DNA of 64,000 nt from Bacteroidales bacterium. GTDB taxonomy: Bacteria; Bacteroidota; Bacteroidia; Bacteroidales; P3. The stretch is from the NCBI GenBank assembly GCA_017439185.1, contig JAFRTM010000013.1:1-64000 (forward strand), given 5' to 3'. Shown piece after piece: positions 10,462-25,283 of the stretch. The translations under genes were made by a program, and so were the position numbers. A model generated the notes under the pieces. The model saw only the letters and a program-made list of their open reading frames with translations, ran no database searches and was not told the DNA's origin. Positions within the stretch are counted from its first letter, which is position 1. Each line of letters opens with the position of its first letter.

Positions 10462-10604
10462 CCTTAGAATAGTTTTTATATATTAAACGTAAAAAAGTAA
10501 AATAAGTTACAGACAATCAGCATATAATTTGACATAAAAGCATTGGGAAAATTAAACTTTCGGGAGTTTTTTGCTATATCTTGTGTGTGGATTTATTTTG
10601 CATG

Positions 10605-10638
10605 TGTCACGGAATGACATACAACGCCTTTATCTTTG
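10605..10638 (+). promoter_or_regulatory. Dyad-plus-TATCTTTG promoter, copy 1 (AAA+ ATPase)
   Basis: TGTCACGGAATGACA (10605-10619), 11 bp, then TATCTTTG (10631-10638) followed by CA, 28 bp before the ATG. The same dyad, spacing and -7 element occur at 14721, 20278 (minus) and 25260 (minus). Confidence 0.85.
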
Positions 10639-10665
10639 CAAACGTAACATAAAACAATATTTGAT

Positions 10666-12345
10666 ATGGAAAACACAGGTAAGAAACAAAGTAACAGCAA
10701 GTTGGATTTATTGATGGCTGTTGAGAAAATCGCAGATTATGCTATTGATTCGCAATTGTCGGCAGAATTTTACCGCAAGGCTGGTCGCTATATAAAATAT
10801 ATATGTGACCGGCTGGGCCTTACGAAGGAGCAGAGTGTGATGATGGCGCTGTTTGTGGACCAGAGCGACGACACGTCGATACAGGCACGCGACATTGCGA
10901 GGGCTACGGGATGCCGTACCACACGTGTGCTGCGCTACCTGAACGATGTTGACGAGCTGGTGAAGAAGGGGCTTGTGGCGCGCAGGACCTCGTCAGGCAG
11001 GACGACTTATATGGTGCCACTTGATGTGCTGGAGGCGTTCAAGGCGAACAAGGCCTATGAGCCCAAGGAGGTGACGGGCCTGACGTGCCAGGAGCTTTTT
11101 GACGAGATCGCTGCGGTTATGGACAAGGTGCACGACAGGGACCTGGAACCTAAGGATGCACACGAGAAGTTGCGGTTTTTGCTTGCGAGCAACCCGCAGT
11201 TGGGCTTCGTGCAGAAGATGAAGCAGATCTCGACCGAATCGTTATATGGCGAGGACGAATACGTGTTGTTGCTGCTGTTCTGCCACTTTTTTGTGAACGA
11301 GAACGACGATATGATTGGCTTCCACGATTTCGAGGATATGTTTAACCCACCTACAATGCGGGCGATCAGGAGAGAGATGGAGCAGGGGAACCACGCCCTC
11401 CAGGAGGCGAAGCTTATAGAGTTCCAGAACAACGAAGGGATGGGCGACAGGCGCTATTTCCACCTGACGATGAAGGCCAAGCGCGACCTGCTGGACGAGC
11501 TGCAGCTGCCCTCGCTCGAGGAGAAGAAGACCATGCGCAATGTGATAAAATCAGATGATATCAAGCCGAGAAACCTGTTCTACTCCAAAGAGATTGACCA
11601 CAGCATCGATGACCTCGCTCGTCTGCTGGAGGAGGAAAACTACCAGTCGATCCACTCGCGCCTGCAGAAGGAGGGCTTCCGCTGCGGTTTCACGTGCCTT
11701 TTCTATGGTGCTCCCGGCACCGGCAAGACGGAGACGGTCCTCCAGCTGGCCCGCCGCACGGGAAGAGACGTGATGCAGGTGAACTTTGCCGAGCTGAAAA
11801 GTTGTTGGGTGGGCGAGAGTGAGAAGAACGTGAAGGCCCTCTTCGACACCTACCGCGAGCGTGTGAAAACCATGAAGAAGACTCCGATACTCCTGTTCAA
11901 CGAGGCCGACGCCATCATCGGGAAACGCCAGGTGGGAGCCGAGCGTGCCGTGGACAAGATGGAAAACTCCATCCAGAACATCATCCTGCAGGAGATGGAA
12001 ACCCTCGACGGCATCCTCATCGCCACCACCAACCTCGCCGAGAATATGGACAAGGCCTTCGAGCGCCGGTTCCTCTACAAGATAAGGTTCGACAATCCCA
12101 CCCTGGAAGCGCGTGTGGCCATCTGGCAGGAGCAGCTGCCTTCCCTCGCCAAGGGCGAGGCCAGGAAGCTGGCCGAGCGCTACGAGTTCAGCGGCGGACA
12201 GATCGAGAACATCGCACGTCACTACAACATCGACGCCATCCTCCACGGCCTCAGCAAGCCCACGGCCGAAAACCTCGCAGCCCACTGCGACTCGGAGAAG
12301 ATAAGCCAGAAGCCGGAAGGGAAGAAGATAGGCTTCGCCAGATAA
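10666..12345 (+). CDS. AAA+ ATPase with N-terminal winged-helix region
   Basis: 559 residues. About residues 60-115 form a helix-turn-helix-like unit (IQARDIARATGCRTTRVLRYLNDVDELVKKGLV), so the protein may bind DNA. The AAA+ core (from about residue 330) has Walker A GAPGTGKT, a Walker B-like ILLFNEAD in which Asn replaces the usual Asp before Glu, sensor-1 ATTN, and an arginine-finger region FERRF. Cytosolic; substrate unknown. It resembles single-gene, CDC48-like AAA proteins of gut Bacteroidota. The promoter carries the same dyad as the WYL operon, so it may be coregulated with that operon. Confidence 0.9.
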   Translation: MENTGKKQSNSKLDLLMAVEKIADYAIDSQLSAEFYRKAGRYIKYICDRLGLTKEQSVMMALFVDQSDDTSIQARDIARATGCRTTRVLRYLNDVDELVKKGLVARRTSSGRTTYMVPLDVLEAFKANKAYEPKEVTGLTCQELFDEIAAVMDKVHDRDLEPKDAHEKLRFLLASNPQLGFVQKMKQISTESLYGEDEYVLLLLFCHFFVNENDDMIGFHDFEDMFNPPTMRAIRREMEQGNHALQEAKLIEFQNNEGMGDRRYFHLTMKAKRDLLDELQLPSLEEKKTMRNVIKSDDIKPRNLFYSKEIDHSIDDLARLLEEENYQSIHSRLQKEGFRCGFTCLFYGAPGTGKTETVLQLARRTGRDVMQVNFAELKSCWVGESEKNVKALFDTYRERVKTMKKTPILLFNEADAIIGKRQVGAERAVDKMENSIQNIILQEMETLDGILIATTNLAENMDKAFERRFLYKIRFDNPTLEARVAIWQEQLPSLAKGEARKLAERYEFSGGQIENIARHYNIDAILHGLSKPTAENLAAHCDSEKISQKPEGKKIGFAR

Positions 12346-12385
12346 ATGTTCATCAAATAGAAAGAAACAAAAAACCGACCACTGA

Positions 12386-12440
12386 CGTTTCTGAAAAGCG
12401 GGTACAGAGGAGTTTACTCTTATGTTGCGCCAAGGAAACG
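12386..12440. repeat. Dispersed palindromic repeat, copy 2
   Basis: CGTTTCT...GGAAACG with an inner inverted repeat around GAGGAGTTTACTC. It has the same orientation as the copy at 5279. Confidence 0.7.
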
Positions 12441-12605
12441 TCTTGCTTATATAGTAAACCACTACTGGTTACTGGCTACTGACAACTAAAAGTTATTTGC
12501 CCGCTTCCGTAAAAAAATTAAAAAAAATTTTCATCCTCACACAATATTTAATTTAATCGCTCGTTATATGACTAAAAAGATAATTACGGAATAAAACATA
12601 TAGTT

Positions 12606-12971
12606 ATGAGCACAACAGAAACGAAAGAACTCACCAAGGCCGAAGAGCAGGTCATGCAAGCCATCTGGAAGATAGGCAAAGGCTTCGCCAACGAGATTGT
12701 GGCCGCTGTGGAGGTCGATGTGGCCTACAACACAGTGCTGACCGTAGTCCGAATCCTCGAGCAGAAAGGATTCGTGGCCCACGAGACCTTCAACCGCTCC
12801 AACCGCTACTATCCTCTTGTCAGCCGTGAGGAATACATGCAGCAGATGCTCCTCCGCATGACGCGCAACTATTTCGGCTCCTCACCTCGCGCACTCGTCT
12901 CGTTCCTCGTCAACAAAAACGAGGTCTCCCTCCAGGACCTCGAAGCCATCACCAAAGAAATTGAACGTTAA
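12606..12971 (+). CDS. BlaI/MecI/CopY-family repressor
   Basis: 121 residues with the family layout: LTKAEEQVMQAIWKIGKGFANEIVAAVEVDVAYNTVLTVVRILEQKGFVAHE is the winged helix, and a C-terminal dimerisation helix region follows. BlaI-type repressors dimerise on a TACA-n-TGTA-like dyad and are cleaved or released when the M56 partner senses a signal. The M56 metallopeptidase gene begins 21 bp downstream, confirming the sensor-repressor pair. No beta-lactamase gene lies in the neighbourhood, so the controlled genes are elsewhere or the pair is self-regulated. Confidence 0.95.
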   Translation: MSTTETKELTKAEEQVMQAIWKIGKGFANEIVAAVEVDVAYNTVLTVVRILEQKGFVAHETFNRSNRYYPLVSREEYMQQMLLRMTRNYFGSSPRALVSFLVNKNEVSLQDLEAITKEIER

Positions 12972-12992
12972 ACCCTTAAAACCCCTACTGAA

Positions 12993-14246
12993 ATGTTACG
13001 CTGGATAATTTTCTCCACCTTGGCAGCAGGCCTCTTCTACGTTCTCTACTGCCTCACCTTCAAGCGCGACCGATGGCTGCAGCTCTCTCGCGCCTATCTT
13101 ATACTTACCCTGGCTTTCAGCCTTGCGTTCCCGCTGGTACAACTGCCGGCCTCCTTTTCCGCACCCTTCGTGTCCGACTTGTCCTCCGGCACCGGCATGT
13201 TGAATGCCGACCTCCCCGAAATCGTCATTTCCTCGGGCAACACCAGCGCAACTCACCCGTCGCTCCTCACCTTGGCTTACCAAATCGGCTTGGCTGTCAC
13301 CGTCGCCTTCCTCCTGACACAGCTGATGCTCCAGCTCCTTTCCATTCTCCGGCTCCGCCGGAAACACTCGGCCTTCGGCGCCCGCGACGGCTTCTCCATA
13401 CCGCAACACGCCTACCTAATCATGCCGCCCGACGACACAGCCCCCTACTCCTTCTTCAACCACATCGTCGTCGGCACACGCGACCTCTCCAACGAGGAAC
13501 TGCGCTGCATCCTCGCCCACGAGTCCCTCCACGTCAGGCAAAGCCACTCCCTCGACCTCACTCTCATGCGCCTGCTCTGCTGCCTGGCATGGTTCAACCC
13601 CTTCGCCTGGCTCATGCTCCGCGAACTCCGTGCCGTCCACGAGTTCCAGGCCGATGGCGCCTCCCTCGACGCCTGCGGCCGCCAGGACTATCTCCACCTG
13701 CTCTACCGCCAGGTGACCTCCATCGGATATGGCCATATCACAAATAATTTTCAAAGTATTAACCTCAAAAAACGTATTGCCATGATGAACAAAACGAAAA
13801 CGCGCCTCGGCGCATGGAAACTGCTGGCAGCACTGCCCCTCGCGGCACTGCTCATGATGTTCGGCTGCAAAAACAACGCCAGCCCCGAACCCGACAACAG
13901 CACGGCAGCCGTCAACGACACCGTCTATGACGCACTCGAGAATCCCGCCGAAGTCCAGCCCGCCTTCCCGGGTGGCGAGGAGGCAATGTACCAGTACCTC
14001 GCCGAAAACATCAACTACCCTGAACAGGCCAAGAAAGACCACATCCAGGGCAGGGTAATCGTCTCCTTTGTTGTGGACGCTGAAGGCAATCTGGTCGAAA
14101 CCGCCGTAGCCAAAGGCATCGGCGGCGGATGTGACGAAGAAGCCCTCCGCGTAGTCAACGCCATGCCCAAGTGGACTCCCGGCCAAGTCCGTGGCGAGAA
14201 TGTCCGCGTAAAGTACAACCTCCCGATAGTCTTCAAACTGCAATAG
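12993..14246 (+). CDS. M56 (BlaR1-like) membrane metallopeptidase fused to a TonB C-terminal domain
   Basis: 417 residues. Hydrophobic segments at about residues 1-50 and 85-115, then the zinc site HESLH within CILAHESLHVRQSHSLDL (about residue 170), then a further membrane segment near residue 290. Instead of the penicillin-binding sensor of BlaR1, the extracytoplasmic end carries a TonB C-terminal domain (QPAFPGGEEAMYQYLAENINYP... IQGRVIVSFVVDAEGNLV), ending in YNLPIVFKLQ. The protein probably cleaves or inactivates the BlaI-like repressor encoded just upstream when the periplasmic domain detects a signal. This fusion is common in Bacteroidota; the ligand is unknown. Confidence 0.93.
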   Translation: MLRWIIFSTLAAGLFYVLYCLTFKRDRWLQLSRAYLILTLAFSLAFPLVQLPASFSAPFVSDLSSGTGMLNADLPEIVISSGNTSATHPSLLTLAYQIGLAVTVAFLLTQLMLQLLSILRLRRKHSAFGARDGFSIPQHAYLIMPPDDTAPYSFFNHIVVGTRDLSNEELRCILAHESLHVRQSHSLDLTLMRLLCCLAWFNPFAWLMLRELRAVHEFQADGASLDACGRQDYLHLLYRQVTSIGYGHITNNFQSINLKKRIAMMNKTKTRLGAWKLLAALPLAALLMMFGCKNNASPEPDNSTAAVNDTVYDALENPAEVQPAFPGGEEAMYQYLAENINYPEQAKKDHIQGRVIVSFVVDAEGNLVETAVAKGIGGGCDEEALRVVNAMPKWTPGQVRGENVRVKYNLPIVFKLQ

Positions 14247-14409
14247 TCGCCAACAGACCATTGCGGTACACCCACGCCCTCCTGCCCGTGGGCCGCGGAT
14301 TCCCCGCGGCCCACAGCAGCGAAGGTCCACATCCCGTGTGCCAAAGCGCACCACCTCAGTATCCCCACACATCCCAATGCGTGGGGATATGTTTTAATGT
14401 TTTGCCATT

Positions 14410-14466
14410 AGGCAAGACATTATCTCGGCTTTGCGGTGTAAGCAAGCTTCCATTGCTCTCGCCTTG
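14410..14466. repeat. Partial palindromic repeat
   Basis: The stretch includes CTCGGCTTTGC and AGCTTCCATTGCTCTCGC, half-similar to the palindrome at 61383-61440. It precedes the long dispersed repeat copy at 14474. Confidence 0.5.
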
Positions 14467-14473
14467 CAATAAT

Positions 14474-14645
14474 GTTAAAATTTGAGTTAAGAGACTGATT
14501 ATCAAAAGAAATTCAATGGTGATACTTTTTTGATAAAAAATTGAGGGAAGGGCAATTATTGGCTAATGCTAACTAGCTGACAACTAGGACACAACTAGGT
14601 ATCAACTCTATGTTAAGTATATGTTTAAATTGTAACCAGTGGTGG
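14474..14645 (+). repeat. Dispersed intergenic repeat A, copy 1
   Basis: Starts GTTAAAATTTGAG and contains the conserved core 14568-14631, which matches 61289-61352 at 59 of 64 positions by direct comparison. It fills most of the 610-bp gap 14247-14856; the remainder of that gap is the palindrome fragment before it and the WYL operon promoter after it. Confidence 0.85.
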
Positions 14646-14720
14646 TAGTCTCCCGAACCCTCTAAACCCTCCAGCCGCACCCCAAATGTTAAAAAATCTC
14701 CTGTGTTTTTCGTAGGGGTG

Positions 14721-14754
14721 TGTCACAGAGTGGCACCCCCTTTCCCTATTTTTG
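14721..14754 (+). promoter_or_regulatory. Dyad-plus-TATTTTTG promoter, copy 2 (WYL-DUF262 operon)
   Basis: TGTCACAGAGTGGCA (14721-14735), 11 bp, TATTTTTG (14747-14754), CA. It lies 103 bp before the WYL start codon, in the right place for autoregulation. Confidence 0.85.
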
Positions 14755-14856
14755 CACCCCGGAACAGTGCAGGACGGTAACCTAAAATTCCTGCCCCAAC
14801 TGGGTGGACCACAATAAATTGACCTTTCGTGCGTTATTCTATAAAATTAATTGGCA

Positions 14857-15762
14857 ATGAACATCCTGAAAAAATACATCTGGCTCGTGGACACACTGCT
14901 CCGCGCCGGCGAAAAGGGTCTGACCCTCAGTCAGATAGCCGATAAGTATGACTATGACGACGACATCAGCAACGGCGACAAGTTCAACGGGCGCACCTTC
15001 CACCGCCACCGCAAAGAGATAAAGACCATCTTCGGCATCGAAATCGAATGCTACCCCACCGGCAACGAGTTCCGTTACCGCATTGCCGACGGGGGCGACA
15101 ACGAGTATTTCCGCCGCTGGCTCCTCGACTCCATCTCCGTGAACCGCATAGTCAGCGACAGCCGCGAGGCCGCCCAGTTCATCGCCATCGAGCACAGCAA
15201 CACCGAGCAGCTCCCGGCACTCCTCCACGCCCTGAAAGACCAGAACCTGATAGAGTTCAAGTATAAACCCTTCTGGACCACCGCCGAAATCCCCTACCAC
15301 GACTTCCAGCCCTATGCCCTCAAGATGTTCGAGCACCGCTGGTACCTGATAGGGAAATCCAAGCCCGAGATGCCATGCAAGATCTACGCCCTTGACCGCA
15401 TCGGTCAGTTGGAAGTCAAGAAGGAGCAGTTCCAGCGCGACCCCGACTTCGACCTCGAAGCCATGTTCGACGGCTCCTTCGGAATCATCGTGGAAACGGG
15501 CGAAGTGGAAAGCGTATGGCTGAAAGTCGAGGCCAAGCAGGCCAACTACCTCCGCTCCCTGCCCCTCCACAGCTCCCAGATGGAGCTGCGCCAAAACGAC
15601 TCCTACTCGGTGTTCTCCCTGCGTGTCCGTCCCACCTTCGACCTGCGGCAGCGAATCCTCTCACTCGGCAGCACCACCGAAGTATTGAAGCCGGAATCGT
15701 TTCGCCAGGAGATTGCGGAGGAAGCAATGAAGATGGCTGCAAAATATCATGAAAATGAATAA
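14857..15762 (+). CDS. WYL-domain transcriptional regulator
   Basis: 301 residues from ATG 14857; an in-frame TTG at 14851 is less likely. The N-terminus carries a helix-turn-helix region (LTLSQIADKYDYDDDIS... NGRTFHRHRKEIKTIF). The central WYL-fold domain spans about residues 128-210 (ALKDQNLIEFKYKPF ... FEHRWYLIGKSKPE, with W-Y-L in order), and a C-terminal WCX-like region follows (VWLKVEAKQANYLRSLPL). WYL proteins bind nucleic acid or nucleotide ligands and often control phage-defence genes. It heads an operon with two DUF262 proteins and has a dyad promoter shared with three other sites in the window, so it is the likely regulator, which is inference. Confidence 0.93.
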   Translation: MNILKKYIWLVDTLLRAGEKGLTLSQIADKYDYDDDISNGDKFNGRTFHRHRKEIKTIFGIEIECYPTGNEFRYRIADGGDNEYFRRWLLDSISVNRIVSDSREAAQFIAIEHSNTEQLPALLHALKDQNLIEFKYKPFWTTAEIPYHDFQPYALKMFEHRWYLIGKSKPEMPCKIYALDRIGQLEVKKEQFQRDPDFDLEAMFDGSFGIIVETGEVESVWLKVEAKQANYLRSLPLHSSQMELRQNDSYSVFSLRVRPTFDLRQRILSLGSTTEVLKPESFRQEIAEEAMKMAAKYHENE

Positions 15763-15779
15763 TAATAAACAATACAACA

Positions 15780-17474
15780 ATGAGTAATATAGTCCTAAAA
15801 GCCAAACTTGTAGGTAAAATATCTGGTGATTTTATCATTCCAGCATATCAAAGAGGATACCGATGGCAAGAAGAGGTGGATATGCTTCTCAACGACCTCC
15901 ATCAAATACCCGCAAACGAAAACTATTGTCTTCAACCAATTGTGGTAAAAAAACTTGGAGACAACAAATATGAGCTAATTGACGGGCAACAACGCCTTAC
16001 GACTTTATTCTTATTATTGAGTTATATCAAAACATATAGACCAAAATTGGTAGTAAATTATACTATGGACTATATTATAAGAGAGAGGAGCCGTGAATTC
16101 CTTAACAATATAGACTTTGACAATATTGATGACCAAGCTTCCAATATTGACGAATATTTTATTAAACAAGCGTCAATCCGGATACGTGATTGGTTTGCAA
16201 ATACAGGAGATGAGGACAATATTGCAAGTCAGATTGCGGACAAACTAAACAACCATGTGAGTGTTATCTGGTATGAAATTGACAACACCGATGATGCGGT
16301 GTCGCTTTTCACCAGATTAAACATCGGCAAAATCCCACTTACAAACGCAGAACTGGTACGAGCGCTCTTTTTAAGCAAAAACAACGGAATTGACGAGAGG
16401 TATCAACTTGAAATATCAACTCAATGGGACGCAATTGAGAAAGAGCTGCACAATAATCGCTTGTGGTATTTCATAACAAACAAGAAGGCAGAAAACTACC
16501 CCACTCGCATCGAGTTGTTGTTTGACATAATGGCAGACAAAAAAGAAAGCGATAGAGAAAGATTACGTACATTCTTTTGGTTTTTTGACAAGACAAACTT
16601 TTTTTCCGGTAATAAAATAGAGCTATGGAAAGATGTTATTGCGAATTTCCAGCGCTTAAAAGAATGGTATAGCGACTCCGAACTATATCATAAAATTGGT
16701 TATCTAATTGCGGTTGGTGAAACATCTTTACAGGACTTAATAAAAGATTCTGCAGCCATAACAAAAGACGCTTTCTTCGCATCTCTCGACAAAAAAATTG
16801 CCAATAGTATTAATTATAGGGAAGACTATGACGAATTGTCCTATGATAAACATTACTGGCAGATTGAGCGGTTATTATTACTCTTTAATGTTGAAAGTGT
16901 ACGACAGAATGGAGACAAGACCATGCGATTCCCATTTGACAAACACAAAAACAAAAAAGACGGATGGTCTCTCGAACATATCCATGCGCAGCAATCGCAA
17001 GGACTTAACACACAATTGCAATGGAACGAATGGCTTGATTTGCATGTCAAATCATTAAAAAATATTTTAGGAAATAGCCAAGCAATCCTTATCAATGAAA
17101 TTGAGTTGCGAGACAGAAACAACGTGACAAAAGAGCAATTTGAAGATTTATTTGAAAAAGTAATCACGGCATTTGGATTTGAAACTAATCTTGAATACCT
17201 TCATACAATCGGGAACATGGCTTTGCTAGGGAAAACCAACAATTCAGCCTTGAACAATTCCACTTTCGATGTAAAACGTGATAAGATAATTGAAATGGAT
17301 CGCACCGGTGACTATATTCCTATTTGTACCAGACGTGTCTTCCTTAAATATTATTCATCATCCGAGAACAATCAACTTCATTTCTGGAGTACAGAAGACC
17401 GTAAAGCCTACCTCAAAGCAATGAACAACACATTAGGTCAATACCTTTCAATAATCAACAAGGAGATAAAATAA
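15780..17474 (+). CDS. DUF262/DUF1524 (GmrSD-like) protein
   Basis: 564 residues. The N-terminal DUF262 domain has the nucleotide-binding/ParB-like motif DGQQRLTT (about residue 64) after the entry IPAYQRGYRW. The C-terminal half carries WSLEHIHAQQ (about residue 400), matching the HxI-type nuclease signature of DUF1524. Such proteins include GmrSD, type IV restriction enzymes that cut modified phage DNA. It lies 17 bp after the WYL gene and overlaps the start of the next DUF262 gene by one base (TAATG), so the three form one operon. Confidence 0.93.
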   Translation: MSNIVLKAKLVGKISGDFIIPAYQRGYRWQEEVDMLLNDLHQIPANENYCLQPIVVKKLGDNKYELIDGQQRLTTLFLLLSYIKTYRPKLVVNYTMDYIIRERSREFLNNIDFDNIDDQASNIDEYFIKQASIRIRDWFANTGDEDNIASQIADKLNNHVSVIWYEIDNTDDAVSLFTRLNIGKIPLTNAELVRALFLSKNNGIDERYQLEISTQWDAIEKELHNNRLWYFITNKKAENYPTRIELLFDIMADKKESDRERLRTFFWFFDKTNFFSGNKIELWKDVIANFQRLKEWYSDSELYHKIGYLIAVGETSLQDLIKDSAAITKDAFFASLDKKIANSINYREDYDELSYDKHYWQIERLLLLFNVESVRQNGDKTMRFPFDKHKNKKDGWSLEHIHAQQSQGLNTQLQWNEWLDLHVKSLKNILGNSQAILINEIELRDRNNVTKEQFEDLFEKVITAFGFETNLEYLHTIGNMALLGKTNNSALNNSTFDVKRDKIIEMDRTGDYIPICTRRVFLKYYSSSENNQLHFWSTEDRKAYLKAMNNTLGQYLSIINKEIK

Positions 17475-19654
17475 TGGACATCAACGAATATACTTTCAGC
17501 AACTTATTTGGCAAGCATACTTCCGAGGATGGTTCAGAATTTGAAATCAGCTGCGTTGAGATTCCGATCATACAACGTGACTATGCGCAAGGACGAACCT
17601 CGGATAAAGTCAATCGTGTCAGGGGGCGCTTCCTGGACACAATCTATAATGCACTGACAAACCATAAGAAACTGACCCTCGACTTTGTATACGGAGAAAT
17701 CACAGAGGGAAAACTAATTCCACTTGATGGACAACAGCGACTCACAACCCTATTCTTGTTGCATTGGTACGCAGCCCAAAAAGAAGGGATTGACCCATCG
17801 GATTATCAATTTCTCAAAGGTTTCTCCTACTATACCCGGCCAAGTTCACGCGATTTTTGCAAGGAATTAGTGGAATTCACTTCTGATGACAGCAAACCTT
17901 CCTTGTCAGAAATAATAATAAACCAACCTTGGTTTCAATACCACTGGTTGAGCGACCCAACAATCAACAGTATGTTGGTAATGTTGGATGCCATAAGCAA
18001 AAGATTTTCCACTCTGGAAAATATATGGGGCGCATTAGTAAACGAACAACTCATAACCTTCTACTTCTTACCGATAGATAAGATGGGAATGAGCGACGAA
18101 CTTTATATCAAAATGAACTCCCGGGGCAAACCATTAACAGAGTTTGAACACTTCAAGGCTGAGTTTGAGACTTTAGTGGCACAGCAAGATGAAAAGATGT
18201 CAAACAGCTTTAACAAAAAGTTTGACCTCGACTGGACAGATATGCTTTTTCCCTATCGTGGAGGAAACAAAATCATCGATGACGAGTTTATGCGATATTT
18301 CTTTTTTATTAGTGATATTCTTTGTTACAGGCAAGGAATCCCACTTGAAAAAGACGAGTTCAGGCTGGCTGAGAAACTCTATGGGAAAGGGAACTCACGC
18401 TCAAAAGAAAATCTCTCGTTTCTTGAAAGTTCATTTGACTGTTGGTGTCATCTCGATATTGATGCCTTCTTTGAAAAGCATTTCTCTCTCATGCAATATG
18501 AAAGTGGAAAAACAAAGATTTTCCAAGATGACAGGAATCTGTTCAAACAATGCTGTGATAACTATGGCGAATACGAAGGCCGTAATCGCAAATTCCCTTT
18601 GAATGTCACATTGTTGCTATTTGCAATTTTGATTTACCGGCAGAATATTGATTCAATCTCCGAAGAGGATTTCCAGAAACGTGTACGCATTGTTAGGAAT
18701 CTCATCTGGAACTCCCAATATGAAATACGCGCTGACGGTCAACGAAACAATATGCCTAAATTGCTTGAAGAAACGAAAACAATTATGCTCTCTGGGGAAA
18801 TTCCGATGACAGAAACATCCGGTAGCTATGGTTATAACAAATTGCAGAAAGAAGAGGAAGTATTGAAGATTGAATGGCTTAAAAAGAATGAAGAATATCG
18901 AGACGAACTCAATCATCTGGAAGACTATGATTTACTCTTCGGGTGTATATCTATCGTTGGCTTGGATAATCCGGAACTATTCGGAAGATTTAGAGAATTG
19001 TTTAATAACTGTGATAAAATGCTGATTTCAAAAGCCTTGCTATGTATTGGTGATTATTCCCAAACAACATCTGAAAACTGGCAAGGTGAAAACTGGCAGC
19101 TTGGAACCGAAAATAAATCAACGTGGCGTGAATTATTCCATCCTACAAATCGGCGGAATGGATTCGACAATACAAAGAAAACGCTTAATACGCTACTTTC
19201 AACAAGCAACAGTTTTGACAATACTCTCCTAAATAATATTATCAACGGTTATTTAACCAATCCTGATACGAAGAAAACATGGAGATATTATTTCGTCAAA
19301 TATCCTCAGATGCTTTCGGAATCATACGGTATGTATTTCACTTACAACGATGGTGATTATCATACATTGAAGATGAATGCACTACAGAAAAATGGCAAGA
19401 CGTGGAATGTGTTTTTGATTGCTCTCTATTATGTGTTGAATGAGAAATATGAGCTGGGAGATTACGCTTATCAAGGTGACAAGATGTACATAACCGATAA
19501 TTTGCAATTGGATTGCGACCAAAATGAATATATAGTGTACCATAAGGATGATGATACTAGTGAATGGTTTCCTATACCACAAGAAGGTGAAGGAATCGAT
19601 GAGGAAGACAGAGTCGAGATGGGAGTTGAGATTGTCAACAAGCTAACTGAATAG
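17474..19654 (+). CDS. Large DUF262-domain protein
   Basis: 726 residues. The N-terminal DUF262 domain has IPIIQRDYAQGR and DGQQRLTT (residues about 88-95). It has MNSRGKPLTEFEHFKAEFE near residue 217, a motif that is typical of this large DUF262 subfamily. I see no HNH/DUF1524 motif at the C-terminus, so it may be the partner that senses or binds while the preceding protein cuts. The pair of DUF262 proteins after a WYL regulator is a candidate anti-phage module. The start overlaps the upstream stop by one base; the operon ends in a strong terminator at 19681. Confidence 0.92.
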   Translation: MDINEYTFSNLFGKHTSEDGSEFEISCVEIPIIQRDYAQGRTSDKVNRVRGRFLDTIYNALTNHKKLTLDFVYGEITEGKLIPLDGQQRLTTLFLLHWYAAQKEGIDPSDYQFLKGFSYYTRPSSRDFCKELVEFTSDDSKPSLSEIIINQPWFQYHWLSDPTINSMLVMLDAISKRFSTLENIWGALVNEQLITFYFLPIDKMGMSDELYIKMNSRGKPLTEFEHFKAEFETLVAQQDEKMSNSFNKKFDLDWTDMLFPYRGGNKIIDDEFMRYFFFISDILCYRQGIPLEKDEFRLAEKLYGKGNSRSKENLSFLESSFDCWCHLDIDAFFEKHFSLMQYESGKTKIFQDDRNLFKQCCDNYGEYEGRNRKFPLNVTLLLFAILIYRQNIDSISEEDFQKRVRIVRNLIWNSQYEIRADGQRNNMPKLLEETKTIMLSGEIPMTETSGSYGYNKLQKEEEVLKIEWLKKNEEYRDELNHLEDYDLLFGCISIVGLDNPELFGRFRELFNNCDKMLISKALLCIGDYSQTTSENWQGENWQLGTENKSTWRELFHPTNRRNGFDNTKKTLNTLLSTSNSFDNTLLNNIINGYLTNPDTKKTWRYYFVKYPQMLSESYGMYFTYNDGDYHTLKMNALQKNGKTWNVFLIALYYVLNEKYELGDYAYQGDKMYITDNLQLDCDQNEYIVYHKDDDTSEWFPIPQEGEGIDEEDRVEMGVEIVNKLTE

Positions 19655-19667
19655 GATACATTACAAA

Positions 19668-19714
19668 CTCAAAAAAAGACAACGGGCCCCCGAAAGGTTG
19701 CCCGTTATCTTTTA
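19668..19714. terminator. Bidirectional terminator
   Basis: AACGGGC (19681-19687) pairs with GCCCGTT (19700-19706). It is flanked by a run of A on the left (T-run for minus transcripts) and TCTTTTAT on the right, between the convergent DUF262 and exonuclease genes. Confidence 0.85.
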
Positions 19715-19726
19715 TCACAAATTAAA

Positions 19727-20221
19727 TCAAATTCCAAGCTTAATAGCGATAACTGCACAAGCCTCCGCATCCGCCAATGCATGGTGGTGGTTTTCAAGGC
19801 AGTATCCGCACGCAGCCGACACCGTGTGCAGTTGGTAGTCCTCCAGTCCTCGCAGCTTCCTCCGCGATGCCTGAAGCGTACAGTGGAACTCATATCCCGG
19901 CCAGTCCATCTGATAGACCTCCATCACAGCCCGCAGGCACCCCTCGTCGAACTGTTTATTGTGTGCCACCAGCGGCAGCCCCTCAATCATCGGAGCCACC
20001 TTCGCCCACACCTCCGGGAACACCTCCGCACCGTCGGTGTCCTCGTGGCATAGGCCGTGCACCTCCTGGCAGAACCAGGCGTAGTAGTTCGGCTCCAGCT
20101 TGATGAGGCTATAAAAACGGTCAGTCACCACGCCATTTCTGACCACTACCACACCCACGCTGCACACGCTGGTCCGGCACCCGTTAGCCGTCTCAAAATC
20201 TATAGCTGCAAAATCCTGCAT
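19727..20221 (-). CDS. DnaQ-type 3'-5' exonuclease (DEDDh)
   Basis: 164-residue single-domain exonuclease. Exo I motif IDFETANG (Asp8, Glu10), Exo II AHNKQFDEGCL with Asp, and Exo III HALADAEACA with His and Asp are all present, so the DEDDh active site is complete. It should degrade single-stranded DNA or RNA ends in the cytosol, with two metal ions. Family members include the DNA polymerase III epsilon-like proteins. It has the dyad promoter (20245-20278), which ties it to the WYL operon converging on it from the left. Confidence 0.93.
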   Translation of the reverse strand: MQDFAAIDFETANGCRTSVCSVGVVVVRNGVVTDRFYSLIKLEPNYYAWFCQEVHGLCHEDTDGAEVFPEVWAKVAPMIEGLPLVAHNKQFDEGCLRAVMEVYQMDWPGYEFHCTLQASRRKLRGLEDYQLHTVSAACGYCLENHHHALADAEACAVIAIKLGI

Positions 20222-20244
20222 AGTTTATCTTTATTTTTCGGCTG

Positions 20245-20278
20245 CAAAAATACAAACGCGCTGCGCCAAATCATGACA
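20245..20278 (-). promoter_or_regulatory. Dyad-plus-TATTTTTG promoter, copy 3 (exonuclease)
   Basis: On the minus strand TGTCATGATTTGGCG (20278-20264), 11 bp, then TATTTTTG (20252-20245) followed by CA, 23 bp before the ATG at 20221. The right half-site is weaker (TGGCG). Confidence 0.8.
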
Positions 20279-20312
20279 TAGGGTGTTTTTTATTGCCGCA
20301 GGGAGTATGGAA

Positions 20313-21452
20313 TCAAGATAGTATAACAGTTTTTATCCATAAACCGAAGAATCTGTCACTGACCCGGTAGCGTTTTCCTTCTTCTATTACCCAATCCTCC
20401 TCTAATAGTTTCTTAATGGCCGATTGTACTGAACTTGCAGAGATCAACTTGTGCCGTTTGATAAAAGCGCCCGATGTGATTTGCGTTGCCCATCCATCCA
20501 AAGCGATGGCATACAGTAGGGACTTGTGCCTCAACGTCATCTTTGACAGGTGCTCTTTGTAAAGGCCGTCATTGTCGTTGAGAATTGATTGTAAAGAGTC
20601 CATTACCACATCGAGACCACACTCCTCACCGGGAAATGTGTTAGAAAACGCCTCATTCATAATTTTTTGTATGTAGTAGGTATGGCCTTCAAACATATCA
20701 TAAACTTTCTTGGCGGTCTCTGGCTCAATTTTCCTGCCCTTATCAGAAAATTTCTCACAAATGAATTTCACGTATTCCTCACAAGGTATGGCGTTTAGGT
20801 CCATATTGTCAGCGCTTTTGTAGAATGGCCTGCTGCGGTTGCCAAACATTAGTCTGAGCATATTTTTTTCGCTGCCGGCAAAAATAAAATGGCAGTTGTC
20901 TATTTCCTGTATATGCCCCCTAAGCAGTGCTTCAATATTCTTTTCGGGGTATTTGCCAATCTGTTGAAATTCATCTATTGCCACTATACAGGGTCGGTCT
21001 GCCTGCTGTAGGTACCCGAATATTTCTTCCAGCGTATATTCTGGATGTTCAATGTCACCCAATCCAATGCTGAAGGTCGGTGTACCCGATATAGTGTCGA
21101 ATCCAAACTTCCCATTGAGGCTCCGCAAGGCTTTCAAGAATCTCTGCCCCATCTTCTTTCCGCGAGGGACTGTCTGCTCATAGACCGCGCGCCCTAGTTC
21201 ATGCACCAATTCCTGTAAACAGGTGGTATGAAGAATATCAATAAAAAATGTGTAATAGTTCTCGGTAAAAGTCGGATTGTTGAAACAATATTGTATTAGT
21301 CCCGTCTTACCCATACGACGGTCCGATTTTATAACTATATTATTTCCGTTAAGCAGCAATTTTATCAGCCTTTCCGATTCTTCTTTTCTGTCACAGAAAT
21401 ACTCGGGTTTTATTCGCCCCGTCACGATAAAAGGATTGTCATTGTTATTCAT
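20313..21452 (-). CDS. P-loop ATPase of the archaeal-ATPase/STAND-like type
   Basis: 379 residues. The N-terminal segment PFIVTGRIKPEYFCDRKEESERL is the opening of the ATPase_2 (PF01637-like) group; Walker A is SDRRMGKTGL (about residue 45) and Walker B CIVAIDEFQQI (about residue 158). A C-terminal winged-helix region (ITSGAFIKRHKLISASSVQSAIKKLLEEDWV) completes the layout. Such ATPases are often regulators or parts of conflict systems. It has its own promoter (TACTTTTG at 21502-21509) with an 11-bp inverted repeat just upstream. Confidence 0.88.
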   Translation of the reverse strand: MNNNDNPFIVTGRIKPEYFCDRKEESERLIKLLLNGNNIVIKSDRRMGKTGLIQYCFNNPTFTENYYTFFIDILHTTCLQELVHELGRAVYEQTVPRGKKMGQRFLKALRSLNGKFGFDTISGTPTFSIGLGDIEHPEYTLEEIFGYLQQADRPCIVAIDEFQQIGKYPEKNIEALLRGHIQEIDNCHFIFAGSEKNMLRLMFGNRSRPFYKSADNMDLNAIPCEEYVKFICEKFSDKGRKIEPETAKKVYDMFEGHTYYIQKIMNEAFSNTFPGEECGLDVVMDSLQSILNDNDGLYKEHLSKMTLRHKSLLYAIALDGWATQITSGAFIKRHKLISASSVQSAIKKLLEEDWVIEEGKRYRVSDRFFGLWIKTVILS

Positions 21453-21501
21453 TTGAATTATTTTATAATGAGAGAATACGTGTCAGACTCTTTTCCAGGT
21501 G

Positions 21502-21509
21502 CAAAAGTA
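21502..21509 (-). promoter_or_regulatory. -7 element for the STAND-like ATPase gene
   Basis: TACTTTTG on the minus strand, 50 bp upstream of ATG 21452. TTTG-containing sequence lies upstream at 21531-21535. Confidence 0.6.
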
Positions 21510-21523
21510 CAAATATTTTTTGT

Positions 21524-21558
21524 AATTATGCAAATTAAATTATTTGTTTTGCATAATT
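21524..21558. repeat. 11-bp inverted repeat at the ATPase promoter
   Basis: AATTATGCAAA (21524-21534) and TTTGCATAATT (21548-21558) are perfect reverse complements separated by 13 bp. It overlaps the -33 region of the ATPase promoter and could be an operator. Confidence 0.7.
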
Positions 21559-21634
21559 TAACATCAATAATGTGGTAAAAAACTGATAATCAGCAGTTAT
21601 TAGTAAAACAATATTATTGATATTTCTGCCATAT

Positions 21635-22147
21635 TCATTGTATTCTGTCGCCGCAGAAGTCCTTCCGTTTGCATTTCTTGCAATGTGCCCCTTGCCACAC
21701 GCTGTCGATATGGTTGGCGGCGGCATCCACCAAGGAAGGTTCGTCTGTGAGTATTCCAGCCTCGAAGTTGCGGTTGCCTTCACCTTTCATACCGATACCG
21801 GCTCCTGTGAGGTTGGCGGAGCCGATGTACGCCACAGAGCAATCGAATATCATTATCTTGAAGTGTACTCGTGGACAAAGTTTTCGTTCCAGTTTCGACC
21901 ACAGTCCAGGGTATTTGTCGAAGTCCTCGCGAAAGTTCTCGCCTGGCTCTTTTGCGTGGAGCAAACGTACCTCGACACCTCGTTTGAGTAGTTTGTCGAG
22001 GACCGATAAGAATGGTATTACATTTTTTCCACTGCTAACATACAGGTCTTTCAAGTCAGCCGTGCCTATCCATAGGTCGTGATTGACCTTCTCGCATAGC
22101 GAGAGGACTTGAGTATAATGTTCTTTATCTGAAATATATCGAATCAT
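21635..22147 (-). CDS. Phospholipase D-like (HKD) protein, probable nuclease
   Basis: 170 residues with a single HKD motif, HFKIMIFD followed by SAYIGSANLTGAG-like sequence (the visible pattern is VHFKIMIFDCSVAYIGSANL). Single-HKD proteins work as dimers, and in bacteria they are often nucleases (Nuc, restriction enzyme BfiI type). The C-terminus has a Cys cluster (CKKCKRKDFCGD) that may bind zinc or an iron-sulfur cluster. It starts 13 bp after the stop of the PD-(D/E)XK gene, so the two are cotranscribed and may act together. Confidence 0.88.
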   Translation of the reverse strand: MIRYISDKEHYTQVLSLCEKVNHDLWIGTADLKDLYVSSGKNVIPFLSVLDKLLKRGVEVRLLHAKEPGENFREDFDKYPGLWSKLERKLCPRVHFKIMIFDCSVAYIGSANLTGAGIGMKGEGNRNFEAGILTDEPSLVDAAANHIDSVWQGAHCKKCKRKDFCGDRIQ

Positions 22148-22160
22148 TTCAGAGGTATAT

Positions 22161-23402
22161 TTATTGATTTAGCTCTAAACCATCATTAATACGCCTAAAT
22201 ACATCTTGATTCCTTATGTTGTCAATTATCTTTCTGACAAAAGAAAACATTTTCCCATCAGCCATATCCTTTAAGGTGTTCCAATCATCCCACCGCCACC
22301 ATCTACCACTGCCACCTATTCCAGATTCACTCCAGAAGTATGCCCAACCTATTGGATTATTATCAGTAGGTTTAGCCGCATCCGGCCAAATAGTGAATTC
22401 CATTCTATTTTTTATTTTGTATGAACTTGGAATTGTGACATCCATAAGAAAACCACCATTATTTGTATGTTCAACTACTCCGATTCTAAAAATAACATTT
22501 TTGTACGGCTCCTCGAAAATTCTAATCCATTTATCATGCTCACAATTTATTATTTCTTCATCATATTCACATCGGTAATTCAAATCATCACAATAAGTTT
22601 TTATCTGATTTACAAAATTTGCCCTTATCCGTTTCTGTATCTCCCAACTTTGTTCAATAATGCTAATGGTAGTTTCAACATTTTCTTTGGAGGTGAGAAC
22701 ATTCATCAACACTTCTGTATTGTTGTTATCCATAATCGAAAAAATGGTTTTAAGGTTATTGATATATTGTTGTATTGTTTCTCTAACAAGTGGTTGCAAT
22801 ACTGCTATACATAAACAATGTTTCAACCAAGTCAAAATATCTTTTCTGTAACTTATGCTGTAATACCTGAAATCCTCTTTACCAACAGAATCCTCACTTG
22901 CTTGTCCACCATCCAATGTAAGATACAAAATGACATATTCCTCATTTGATAGTGCTGCACATTGACGAGCATAATTATGGTATCTTAACAATTGATACTT
23001 TTGGTCCCCCGCATATATTTTATTCTCAATAATTATTGTTTGCTTGTATTTGTCTTTAAGCAAGATGTCTATTCGTCCACCCTCGGTGTACCCTTCCGAA
23101 ATTGGGCCAATAGGATATTCCACAAAAACATCCGTGGAGGATGTGTCTAAGTTGAACGACAATTGCTTGGCAATAATATCATCAATAAAAGCTTTCAAGA
23201 ATTTATCGCCTAATCCGTGATTTCCATTTGGATTCAATAATTCTGCAATAATAGCAGAATGAAGGCGAACCTCTGATGTTTGAAGTCCTAGTATTTCAAA
23301 AATATTGAAACACTCCCCTCTTCCCCTCTTTTCTTCCCGCTGGGTCCTCTCTTGTACAAGTATTTCGGATACTTGCTTTAACAATCCATTTAACTTCTCC
23401 AT
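22161..23402 (-). CDS. PD-(D/E)XK nuclease-superfamily protein
   Basis: 413 residues. The catalytic core sits at about residues 110-145: GRIDILLKD gives the Asp, IIIENKIYAGDQ gives the E-x-K, and the following QLLRYHNYA helix is typical of the PDDEXK_4 group. The N-terminal LHSAIIAELLNPNGNHGLG is the family's opening motif. The C-terminal ~170 residues have a Trp-rich segment (GWAYFWSESGIGGSGRWWRW) that may be a target-sensing domain. The 88-bp gap to the membrane protein upstream has no obvious promoter, so it is probably read through. Confidence 0.88.
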   Translation of the reverse strand: MEKLNGLLKQVSEILVQERTQREEKRGRGECFNIFEILGLQTSEVRLHSAIIAELLNPNGNHGLGDKFLKAFIDDIIAKQLSFNLDTSSTDVFVEYPIGPISEGYTEGGRIDILLKDKYKQTIIIENKIYAGDQKYQLLRYHNYARQCAALSNEEYVILYLTLDGGQASEDSVGKEDFRYYSISYRKDILTWLKHCLCIAVLQPLVRETIQQYINNLKTIFSIMDNNNTEVLMNVLTSKENVETTISIIEQSWEIQKRIRANFVNQIKTYCDDLNYRCEYDEEIINCEHDKWIRIFEEPYKNVIFRIGVVEHTNNGGFLMDVTIPSSYKIKNRMEFTIWPDAAKPTDNNPIGWAYFWSESGIGGSGRWWRWDDWNTLKDMADGKMFSFVRKIIDNIRNQDVFRRINDGLELNQ

Positions 23403-23490
23403 ATTATATTTAGTTTATTTGGCTGTGACGGAAAAACTCACATTAGTTGCTTTGTCTGTGTACGATGAGTTTTTATTACAGGATTTGTCT

Positions 23491-24678
23491 CTATTTTAGA
23501 CTAAACCATTCATACAACGTGCTTGCATAACTAGCATCATACCTCGAAATAGTACGACGATAAACGCCACCGGGATTACCAACACCATCTGGTATGTATT
23601 TAAGTGGTTCGACAATCAGATTTGTACATAGGTCAGCACCATCATCACGTCCCCCATAAATATCAAATTCATTTACATCTTCGTCGGAGATAGATACAAC
23701 TTGCTCTTGTTTGTTGAAACGATGTATGGTTTCTTTTTGTTCTTTGTAATCAAAGATACGCCAACCGAGAGGTTTGAATGCGCCAATATAGCCAAACCCA
23801 CCACGACGGAACAGGAAGACAATATCGTTATCACCAACCTGCTTAATTAAATTCGTACGCCAAGATTCCCCATATTCAATTAGTGATAACTCGTTGATTT
23901 TTCCATCACCAATAGCATCCAGTTGCTTGTCTCCTAACATTGCAAAGTGCCAGGCCTGATTGTATTCCATTTTATTGGGGGAGTTTTGGACAGGCTCTTC
24001 TGAAGACTCCACAGTTGCTGGTGTGGTTATGGATTGAGCGTTGTCGTCTTTCTTGGATAATTGATTCAGTTTCATCTCCTCTTTTCCCGAAACCGCTGTT
24101 AATATCGGAGGAAGTGCGAAGTTTCTCCAGAGGGCGGATAACTCCTCAGTAGCATTGTCATTGTTTTTATTAATGTCATTTCGCAACACCTCAGTTATTT
24201 CCGAGTAGCTTGTTATAATACCACCTGATGCTTTATAAAAGGCTTTGCCATCTTCGTCTTTTTGCAAGTTTTTTCGCAGTTCTGTTATTTTGTTGATTTT
24301 CTCGCCAAGCACCTTTATGTCATTAATGCCGAGGTAAAAAATGAGCCTGTTGAACACTTCTGAACGGATTTCTCTCAACTCTTCTTCGGTAAGGTTGCCG
24401 TCCTTCATCGTATCCCATAACTTGGAGATGAAATCCGAGTATACAACAATCTTGTTCTCGTAAATCTTTATGTTTTTTTCTTTTTCCTCCTCGGCTTTTT
24501 TCTGACTGTCCAACAATAGCCTAGTAATCCATGCCGTAGCACCAGCCCCAAGACATGCACTAGCTATGATTGCCAAAATTTGTGGATAAAAATCGGGAAT
24601 GTGAAAAACAAAAAAACAGATTGCTAGTACTGCTAGAAAAATCCCGATTCCTAATAAAATATTAAAAAAATTCTTCAT
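23491..24678 (-). CDS. Membrane-anchored coiled-coil protein with a possible PUA/EVE-like C-terminal domain
   Basis: 395 residues. Two hydrophobic segments at about residues 5-25 and 32-50 are followed by a charged helical stretch (DSQKKAEEEKEKNIK). A long helical middle comes next, then a low-complexity linker near residue 215 (AQSITTPATVESSEEPVQN). The C-terminal ~150 residues start NQAWHFAMLGDKQLDAIGDG and contain VGDNDIVFLFRRGGFGYIGA, which resembles the GDxVFLY core of PUA/EVE-type folds that read modified bases. That comparison is tentative. It lies between a repeat protein and a PD-(D/E)XK nuclease, all on the same strand, which fits a membrane-linked defence role. Confidence 0.75.
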   Translation of the reverse strand: MKNFFNILLGIGIFLAVLAICFFVFHIPDFYPQILAIIASACLGAGATAWITRLLLDSQKKAEEEKEKNIKIYENKIVVYSDFISKLWDTMKDGNLTEEELREIRSEVFNRLIFYLGINDIKVLGEKINKITELRKNLQKDEDGKAFYKASGGIITSYSEITEVLRNDINKNNDNATEELSALWRNFALPPILTAVSGKEEMKLNQLSKKDDNAQSITTPATVESSEEPVQNSPNKMEYNQAWHFAMLGDKQLDAIGDGKINELSLIEYGESWRTNLIKQVGDNDIVFLFRRGGFGYIGAFKPLGWRIFDYKEQKETIHRFNKQEQVVSISDEDVNEFDIYGGRDDGADLCTNLIVEPLKYIPDGVGNPGGVYRRTISRYDASYASTLYEWFSLK

Positions 24679-24722
24679 GGTTGGAGATTTTAATATATAA
24701 TTAATTGATTTAGTTGAAGATT

Positions 24723-25064
24723 TTAACTCCTTTTCATCCAGCTACGGCCGGCACTGGTGGAATAATATAGTCCTTTGCTGGTGTTGGCCAAGAGTTCGCG
24801 GCCACCGTCAGAAAGGCTATAAAAAGTGCCGCAGGAAGTACCTGTATAGCGGGATAACCAGGAGCGGCCCTGACTGGTTGAATAATATACTCCTTTTGTT
24901 GTTACTGCAAGTAACTCGTTGCCGTAGGGCAAAAGGTCAAGGAAGGTCCCATACGATGAACCGCTGTAACGTGTCATCCACGAGCGACCTCCGCTGGTTG
25001 AATACTCAATTCCTTTGTCCGAGATTCTAAGCATCTCATTTCCATAATTGATTAACTGTGGCAT
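24723..25064 (-). CDS. Small repeat protein with three Asp-box-like units
   Basis: 113 residues built of three units of about 40 residues. Each contains the motif YSTS-x-GRSW (IEYSTSGGRSWM, VYYSTSQGRSWL, LYYSTSAGRSWM), which is like the BNR/Asp-box S-x-D-x-G-x-x-W with Ser in place of Asp. The units also share SGSSYGTFLDL or TGTSCGTFYSL. It lacks a signal peptide, and three units are too few for a closed propeller, so it may oligomerise. It has a normal promoter at 25098 and a second upstream dyad promoter at 25227-25260. The membrane protein gene follows 44 bp downstream. Confidence 0.8.
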   Translation of the reverse strand: MPQLINYGNEMLRISDKGIEYSTSGGRSWMTRYSGSSYGTFLDLLPYGNELLAVTTKGVYYSTSQGRSWLSRYTGTSCGTFYSLSDGGRELLANTSKGLYYSTSAGRSWMKRS

Positions 25065-25097
25065 AATATTAAGGTATTATTTATTAATTTCACGGTG

Positions 25098-25105
25098 CAA
25101 AGATA
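25098..25105 (-). promoter_or_regulatory. -7 element for the Asp-box repeat gene
   Basis: TATCTTTG on the minus strand, 34 bp from ATG 25064. Confidence 0.6.
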
Positions 25106-25226
25106 ATCATTTTTTATCAATTAGTCTGTGATTCTTTCCTTAAATCCATCAATCCGATAGGCAATACGCTGATTAATAGTATATTATATTTGTCACGGTA
25201 TAATTATTCTCTATCTTTTCGATTTG

Positions 25227-25260
25227 CAAAGATAGGCACCGGCTATGCCAGAGCGTGACA
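25227..25260 (-). promoter_or_regulatory. Dyad-plus-TATCTTTG promoter, copy 4 (leftward, no gene directly after it)
   Basis: On the minus strand TGTCACGCTCTGGCA (25260-25246), 11 bp, TATCTTTG (25234-25227) followed by CA. Transcription would start near 25220, about 155 bp before the repeat-protein ATG. The leader holds only a 10-codon ATG frame, so it is a long 5' UTR or a small RNA. Confidence 0.8.
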
Positions 25261-25283
25261 TACCACTCGGTAAGGTTGCAAAA

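Follow-up and report, generated by a model that had tools for sequence, protein, structure and literature searches.

A dyad-bearing promoter shared by four units of a Bacteroidales island, with a WYL-domain protein as its candidate reader

Described WYL-domain regulators include both activators and repressors. DriD of Caulobacter crescentus is a homodimeric activator that recognizes a pseudo-palindrome placed over the -35 region at a constant distance from the -10 element, an arrangement described for the bapE, didA, recJ, and dnaG promoters (PMC12340889). SiwR of Mycobacterium smegmatis, likewise a homodimeric activator, binds an imperfect 19-bp palindrome located between -35 and -10 and requires the -26 region (PMC10693628), and mycobacterial PafBC works with the housekeeping sigma factor via a -26 element (PMC11804915). 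CapW and BrxR, by contrast, are WYL repressors of defence islands: CapW sites overlap the -10 element (PMC9122588), and the repeat bound by BrxR of E. fergusonii lies downstream of the predicted -10 (PMC9122601); a BrxR of Acinetobacter has also been described (PMC9122589), and 338 of 347 BrxR homologues fall in Proteobacteria (PMC9122601). Here we consider a 64-kb stretch of DNA from a Bacteroidales bacterium (positions 1 to 64,000 of contig JAFRTM010000013.1, assembly GCA_017439185.1), referred to in its full length as the window. An earlier note on this stretch had proposed that four copies of one composite promoter, a dyad followed by a -7 element, link an AAA ATPase gene, an operon encoding a WYL protein, an exonuclease gene, and a nuclease cluster, with the WYL protein as a possible regulator.

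Our search pattern comprised 36 letters, TGTCAYNNNNTGRCR-N11-TATYTTTGCA, and includes the motif TAnnTTTG, which we take to be the housekeeping -7 element. The window contains exactly four matches, all with 0 mismatches and all with a spacing of 11 bp between dyad and -7 element (Table 1). No fifth match appears in the window even when up to three mismatches are allowed, and none of 100 dinucleotide shuffles of the window contains a match. The four copies, their identical spacing, and the lack of any further dyad-bearing promoter in the window are therefore as the earlier note had them, and so are the downstream genes: the AAA ATPase, the WYL protein with two GmrSD (DUF262) proteins, the exonuclease, and a nuclease cluster that includes a protein with a hydrophobic segment. 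In the genome that contains the window (G000; 2.15 Mb in 28 contigs, 92% complete), a fifth exact site is found on another contig (G000:C24:244665), 48 bp before sbcD, which is followed by sbcC (L163, 9.7-14.5 kb; sbcC has a match to the SbcC Walker B profile at 1.7e-07, and sbcD was named by eye). Loosening the pattern to 2 mismatches adds three poor matches that resemble chance, with 0 in the reversed control. Four of the five sites in this genome thus precede island genes and one precedes sbcDC, and the genome-wide search for which the note had called did not return sites before random housekeeping genes. Across 120 genomes of the genus, there are 63 exact sites in 39 genomes and none for the pattern read backwards, which, together with the shuffles, bears out the claim that this is a shared regulatory site rather than a chance resemblance.

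The site before sbcD does not appear to be an ancestral feature. Although sbcDC is present in 34 of the 120 genus genomes, none of the 29 other sbcD loci examined, out of 33 other genomes with sbcD, carries a site at up to 2 mismatches and a spacing of 11 bp, and the sbcDC operator was therefore probably gained recently. Sites before sbcDC and before a DEDDh exonuclease gene also bring to mind the non-canonical (S24-type) LexA SOS repressor of Bacteroidetes, whose motifs are likewise palindromes with a 5-bp spacer and whose networks include DNA-repair genes such as an exonuclease, alongside DNA polymerase III alpha and topoisomerase IV (PMC8565304). However, the published motifs, GGA-N5-TCC and CTAA-N5-TTAG (PMC8565304), differ from the present site, and five of the 20 genomes searched, all of them site-bearing (the window's own genome, G014, G054, G056, and G112), have no S24 peptidase at E 0.01. 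We therefore consider control of these genes by such a LexA to be highly improbable.

Alignment of sites from many genomes (97 unique strict sites, and 82 non-redundant flanks out of 101) extends the element to TRTGTCAY-N4-TGRCAYA, an imperfect dyad of 19 bp located 11 bp upstream of the -7 element. The outer letters, which lie outside the search pattern, are conserved symmetrically, with T at position -1 in 68 of 82 flanks and A or G at position 0 in 72 of 82, and on the right side C or T at position 16 in 90 and A at position 17 in 69 of the 97 unique sites. In the 63 sites (of 103) that were left after removing near duplicates, positions 0 and 16 covary (G-C 26, A-T 15, G-T 12, A-C 5, A-A 5), giving 41 matched versus 17 crossed combinations among 58 sites when the five A-A cases are left out (Fisher p 0.0023). 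A direct repeat (TGTCAY/TGRCRY, period 10) was considered and rejected: position 16 fits both arrangements, whereas the dyad is favoured by positions -1 and 0 and by the 0/16 covariation. The same covariation disfavours the alternative raised in the earlier note, in which the dyad is an unusual -33 element recognized by a dedicated sigma factor. A fixed spacing to the -7 element would suit such a factor, but outer positions that covary symmetrically are characteristic of dimer binding; furthermore, the CA that follows TTTG is shared with 134 dyad-less promoters from the same regions, both promoter sets having been selected for TAnnTTTG but not for this extension. A dedicated sigma factor is, in our judgment, an extremely unlikely reader.

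The spacing between dyad and -7 element is nearly invariant. In 60 regions (985 kb with 441 occurrences of TAnnTTTGC, most of the regions having been chosen for a site or a WYL gene), 67 sites without mismatch have a spacing of 11 bp, as do 27 with one mismatch and 9 with two; spacings of 8-10 and 12-14 bp give no site with 0 or 1 mismatch and five with 2. If the dyad is searched alone, with no promoter required, 55 of 67 instances have TAnnTTTG at 11 bp, and by our own reading, of the remaining 12, six represent a symmetric site read on the other strand, five have an imperfect -7 element at the same distance, and one shows neither. The centre of the dyad is found 19 bp upstream of the -7 element, which places it over the -33 region; in 44 site-bearing promoters the dyad fills the place where the 134 dyad-less promoters have a weak TTG (at -22 to -25, 31 of 134). 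Sites lie close to genes (less than 60 bp in 60 of 82 cases, median 30), with no gene assigned for 21 of 103.

In its geometry the locus thus resembles the activator systems, with a palindrome at a fixed distance upstream of the -7 element that overlaps -33, and the core dyad ends 11 bp upstream of -7 rather than lying over or downstream of the -10 position as the operators of BrxR and CapW do. It shares with DriD a WYL protein and a palindrome over -35/-33 at a fixed distance from -10/-7, but differs in that the DriD consensus, ATACGAC-N7-GTCGTAT, is unlike the present dyad and in that the present sites fall mainly in a defence island. With SiwR it shares a 19-bp imperfect palindrome upstream of -10/-7, but SiwR has been shown to act on an adjacent operon, and here there are several operons per island.

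Beyond the genus, a collection with one genome per species (84,980 species) yields 85 matching stretches. Of 80 record titles among the matches listed (of 85), 75 name Bacteroidetes, Bacteroidales, or a member family or genus, many of them from rumen; a scan of viral contigs gave 0 matching stretches. In 35 of the 85 loci, the site sequence matches none on the genus list, although some may still belong to the genus (one candidate, L083, has a WYL protein of 56% identity). A few occurrences may be due to chance or binning, namely sites before dnaE (L014, G027; gene named by eye) and sites in records titled Fibrobacter (2), Clostridia, Bacilli, and an archaeal metagenome-assembled genome (MAG). 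The site in G030 (L164) lacks the GCA end and may also be chance.

Judged from sequence comparison, the WYL protein encoded in the window is the best candidate, and the most likely one, for the reader of these sites, because it co-occurs with them, is physically linked to them, and has one before its own gene, a placement that recurs at a WYL gene whose product is only 33% identical. Close WYL orthologues (at least 54% identity, E 1e-100 or better) occur in 41 of the 120 genus genomes, being present in 27 of 39 site-bearing versus 14 of 81 other genomes (odds ratio 10.8; p 3.5e-8, uncorrected for kinship). In WYL genomes, 45 of 50 sites lie 0.1-14 kb from the WYL gene and the other 5 are on other contigs. 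Fourteen WYL genomes lack the exact pattern; in nine of them, variant sites (up to 2 mismatches) are present within the 7-20 kb fetched around the WYL gene, compared with 0 of 14 in the reversed control. The WYL gene often lies downstream of a site, on the same strand, in a row of genes that the site heads (e.g., L146, L156, and L160). Similar placements are seen at more distant WYL genes: in L135, a MAG titled Rikenellaceae, an exact site starts 75 bp upstream of the gene for the 33%-identical WYL protein, with a GmrSD pair further on, and in L061 an exact site is found 714 bp upstream of a more distant WYL homologue, while the corresponding case at L164 may, as said, be chance. Within the genus, L097 has a one-mismatch site 78 bp upstream of its WYL gene. 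Among 30 WYL loci from the genomes of the 35 loci outside the genus list, six have a site at 0-1 mismatch (the one at L229 is likely chance).

We consider it probable that this WYL protein binds the sites. Its WYL and WCX domain matches both exceed the Pfam cut-off, as expected of a WYL-domain transcription factor; no helix-turn-helix match was found in Pfam, and the N-terminal stretch is well conserved in the 11 closest rows, the window's included. The exonuclease was also tried as a linkage marker, and was set aside as uninformative since it is present in 86 of the 120 genomes.

Several findings weigh against this assignment, or against the scheme that we build on it below, and the earlier note's suggestion of the WYL protein as reader can therefore be upheld only in part. 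Twelve of the 39 site-bearing genomes have no close WYL orthologue, and six of these 12 have no WYL-profile match at all at E 1e-4. The sites in such genomes are the weightiest evidence against the WYL protein as the only reader: 12 sites from 11 of the 12 genomes (G056 left out) keep the four outer positions in 12, 12, 12, and 11 of 12 cases, no worse than the 47 sites from WYL genomes (39, 47, 47, and 35). Several of these genomes are 93-98% complete, though gene loss through incompleteness is possible, and the absence could be due to contigs that are missing, to loss of the regulator, or to a second reader. Conversely, five of the 41 close-WYL genomes have no site in the stretch fetched around the WYL gene. 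Outside the genus list, the mere presence of a WYL protein does not discriminate, because some WYL protein is found in 19 of the 35 genomes of those loci versus 9 of 16 order-level relatives (E 1e-10). The arms of the dyad are imperfectly complementary, with G at position 13 in 70 of 97 sites and T at position 3 opposite that G in 39 of 63. A correspondence between WYL clade and site letters, visible in raw counts, was not significant after strict dereplication (6/8 vs 2/7, p 0.13). Lastly, the R-x-x-R arginine pair of the single-stranded DNA (ssDNA) sensors PafBC and DriD is half present: the first residue is A, S, or G, and the second arginine is invariant in 21 of 21 rows, at a place where PafBC has FRLSR and FRLDR. 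If, as we suppose, these positions correspond to the published ssDNA-sensing arginines, the absence of one of the two suggests that something other than ssDNA may be the signal.

The WYL-less genomes could be accommodated by a second regulator, present in all site-bearing genomes, that reads the site, the WYL protein being merely a frequent island neighbour. The intact sites and the lack of any WYL-profile match in half of those genomes speak for it, and the AAA protein, whose N-terminal stretch resembles a winged helix by eye, might be such a regulator, as at E 1e-200 or better it also co-occurs with the site (13 of 39 site-bearing versus 4 of 81 other genomes, p 7.8e-5; at the looser E 1e-60, 18 of 39 versus 15 of 81). 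However, a close AAA protein accompanies the site in fewer site-bearing genomes (13 of 39) than the WYL protein does (27 of 39), and when the 103 genomes that lack a close AAA protein are taken by themselves, the WYL link still holds (15/26 versus 11/77, p 3.4e-5), whereas among the 79 genomes without a close WYL protein no AAA link is seen (1/12 versus 1/67, p 0.28, with few cases). The recurrence of the site before more distant WYL genes is a further argument against a second regulator, which we regard as improbable.

In six of the WYL-less genomes, the first gene after the site is the same, encoding an 80-odd-amino-acid (aa) protein, and operons headed by that gene keep the site at L147, L158, L159, L268, L269, L271, and L103, most of them without a close WYL protein. 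In three mapped regions, it is followed by genes for a 380-aa protein (split into two frames in one region) and for a protein whose weak GIY-YIG match falls below the cut-off. A small-protein family, d0, with 48 occurrences in the 60 regions, most often supplies the first gene downstream of a site (17 of 82); two members were scanned and gave no Pfam match above the cut-off.

Returning to the WYL protein as reader, we propose a scheme that, taken as a whole, we hold to be slightly better than an even bet. The four sites would be operators of one regulon, and a dimer of the WYL-WCX protein would bind TRTGTCAY-N4-TGRCAYA, covering the -33 region, and from that fixed position help RNA polymerase at the TAnnTTTGCA -7 element to start transcription, which would make this a Bacteroidales version of DriD, SiwR, and PafBC action. 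The regulon would consist of the island (ATPase, WYL gene with the GmrSD pair, exonuclease, and nuclease cluster) plus sbcDC elsewhere in the genome. The WYL domain might sense a product of phage attack or of DNA damage, although this identification of the signal is speculative and we would not rely on it.

That the protein activates rather than represses seems to us reasonably likely, given that both the position of the site and the rank of DriD and PafBC in profile searches resemble WYL activators more than CapW and BrxR. In a profile search of the PDB, the WYL protein matches DriD at 2.8e-17 in one stretch and PafBC at 8.5e-25 summed over two stretches (best single 6.8e-9), whereas CapW and BrxR match at 9.8e-7 to 2e-5 over shorter partial stretches. 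PafBC is akin in this match over two stretches and in its action with the housekeeping sigma factor via a -26 element; it differs in being a heterodimer with a two-arginine ssDNA motif, of which the window protein keeps one arginine. The invariant 11-bp spacing, in turn, argues for contact with polymerase. Alternatively, the same WYL protein could be a repressor that blocks polymerase at -33 and leaves upon binding a ligand made during infection, in the manner of CapW and BrxR. The dyad does cover the -33 region, the known WYL regulators of defence islands do repress (PMC9122601, PMC9122588), and the resemblance extends to a WYL protein beside defence genes, to a palindromic operator before its own operon (two boxes for BrxR), and to a 5-bp spacer between the arms of the BrxR operator (PMC9122601). 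Against this, those repressors have their sites over or after the -10 element, a simple repressor would by our reasoning not need a fixed 11-bp spacing, the window protein is a weaker sequence match to them than to DriD and PafBC, and BrxR homologues are, as noted above, nearly all proteobacterial. We therefore rate repression as unlikely, though a stronger contender than a second regulator.

Activation by the WYL protein from the -33 region leads to a broader reading, which we put forward tentatively and with somewhat less than even confidence. This would be a Bacteroidales counterpart of PafBC and DriD, in which one WYL activator adapts the -33/-7 promoter of the phylum. Island modules would either bring the common 34-bp promoter with them or acquire it, and would join a single regulon induced by damage or infection, one also able to capture chromosomal repair genes (sbcDC, for instance). 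A number of genes for defence and DNA repair may then be switched together. If this is true, unrelated modules of a defence island share one promoter and form a single regulon, the unusual promoter of this phylum is activated from its -33 region, and searching for the promoter alone could reveal new modules, including proteins without a known domain. That WYL proteins control defence genes, and that some of them are activators, is already known; a multi-operon island regulon with this promoter would be new. Searches of the open literature, with most subscription papers outside their scope, found no WYL regulon in Bacteroidales.

Table 1. Sites and genes of the four units, in window coordinates
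Feature	Coordinates	Strand	Remarks
Site 1, dyad + -7 element TATCTTTGCA at 11 bp	10603..10640 (36-letter match 10605-10640)	+	TTTG to AAA ATPase ATG, 27 bp
AAA ATPase, 559 aa	10666..12345	+	Pfam PF00004 6.5e-24; PADLOC best models IetA 2.6e-29, then TRIP13 1.7e-12
Site 2, dyad + -7 element	14719..14756 (36-letter match 14721-14756)	+	TTTG to WYL ATG, 102 bp; autoregulatory position
WYL-WCX protein, 301 aa from ATG	14857..15762	+	Candidate site reader; Pfam WYL (PF13280) 1.8e-08, WCX (PF25583) 3.1e-11
GmrSD_N/GmrSD_C (DUF262) protein	15780..17474	+	Pfam 6.8e-33
Second GmrSD_N (DUF262) protein	17474..19654	+	Pfam 1e-20
DEDDh exonuclease (RNase_T), 164 aa	19727..20221	-	Pfam 7.5e-15; PADLOC DEDDh 2.8e-22
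Site 3, dyad + -7 element	20243..20280 (36-letter match 20243-20278)	-	TTTG to exonuclease ATG, 23 bp
ATPase_2 protein	20313..21452	-	Pfam 4.6e-10; preceded by 182-bp gap
PLD-like nuclease, 170 aa	21635..22147	-	Pfam 1.7e-11; PADLOC DrmC models weak, 2.8e-08
PD-(D/E)XK nuclease (PDDEXK_4; PADLOC candidate PDC-S26)	22161..23402	-	Pfam 5e-40; PADLOC 3.7e-102
395-aa protein, N-terminal hydrophobic segment	23491..24678	-	No Pfam family
113-aa repeat protein	24723..25064	-	BNR-like below Pfam cut-off; first open reading frame after site 4
Site 4, dyad + -7 element	25225..25262 (36-letter match 25225-25260)	-	162 bp before next open reading frame

The families listed in Table 1 agree with the earlier description of the linked genes as defence-like, and family membership suggests a defence function for the island genes; in a Pfam scan of site-linked or island proteins, six of 10 had no match at 0.01. 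Site 4 is tied to its genes less firmly than the other three sites are to theirs, because of the distance to the first open reading frame and because a dyad-less TTATCTTTGCA, resembling a -7 element, lies nearer to it (window 25096-25106). Whether the ATPase_2 gene belongs to the site-4 transcript is uncertain, given the gap that precedes it. Between units 1 and 2, a gene pair for a BlaI-like repressor and an M56/TonB_C protein (window 12606-14246) has no site.

We note two further gene contexts in which sites occur. In L109 and L144, a site precedes a gene whose start resembles, by eye, RtcB RNA ligase, and L144 also carries a stretch encoding a 39%-identical WYL protein together with a 31%-identical AAA protein. 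In L342 and L343 (G004 and G125), umuD-like (S24) genes, each with a neighbour that looks umuC-like by eye, are divergent from an AAA gene that has a one-mismatch site.

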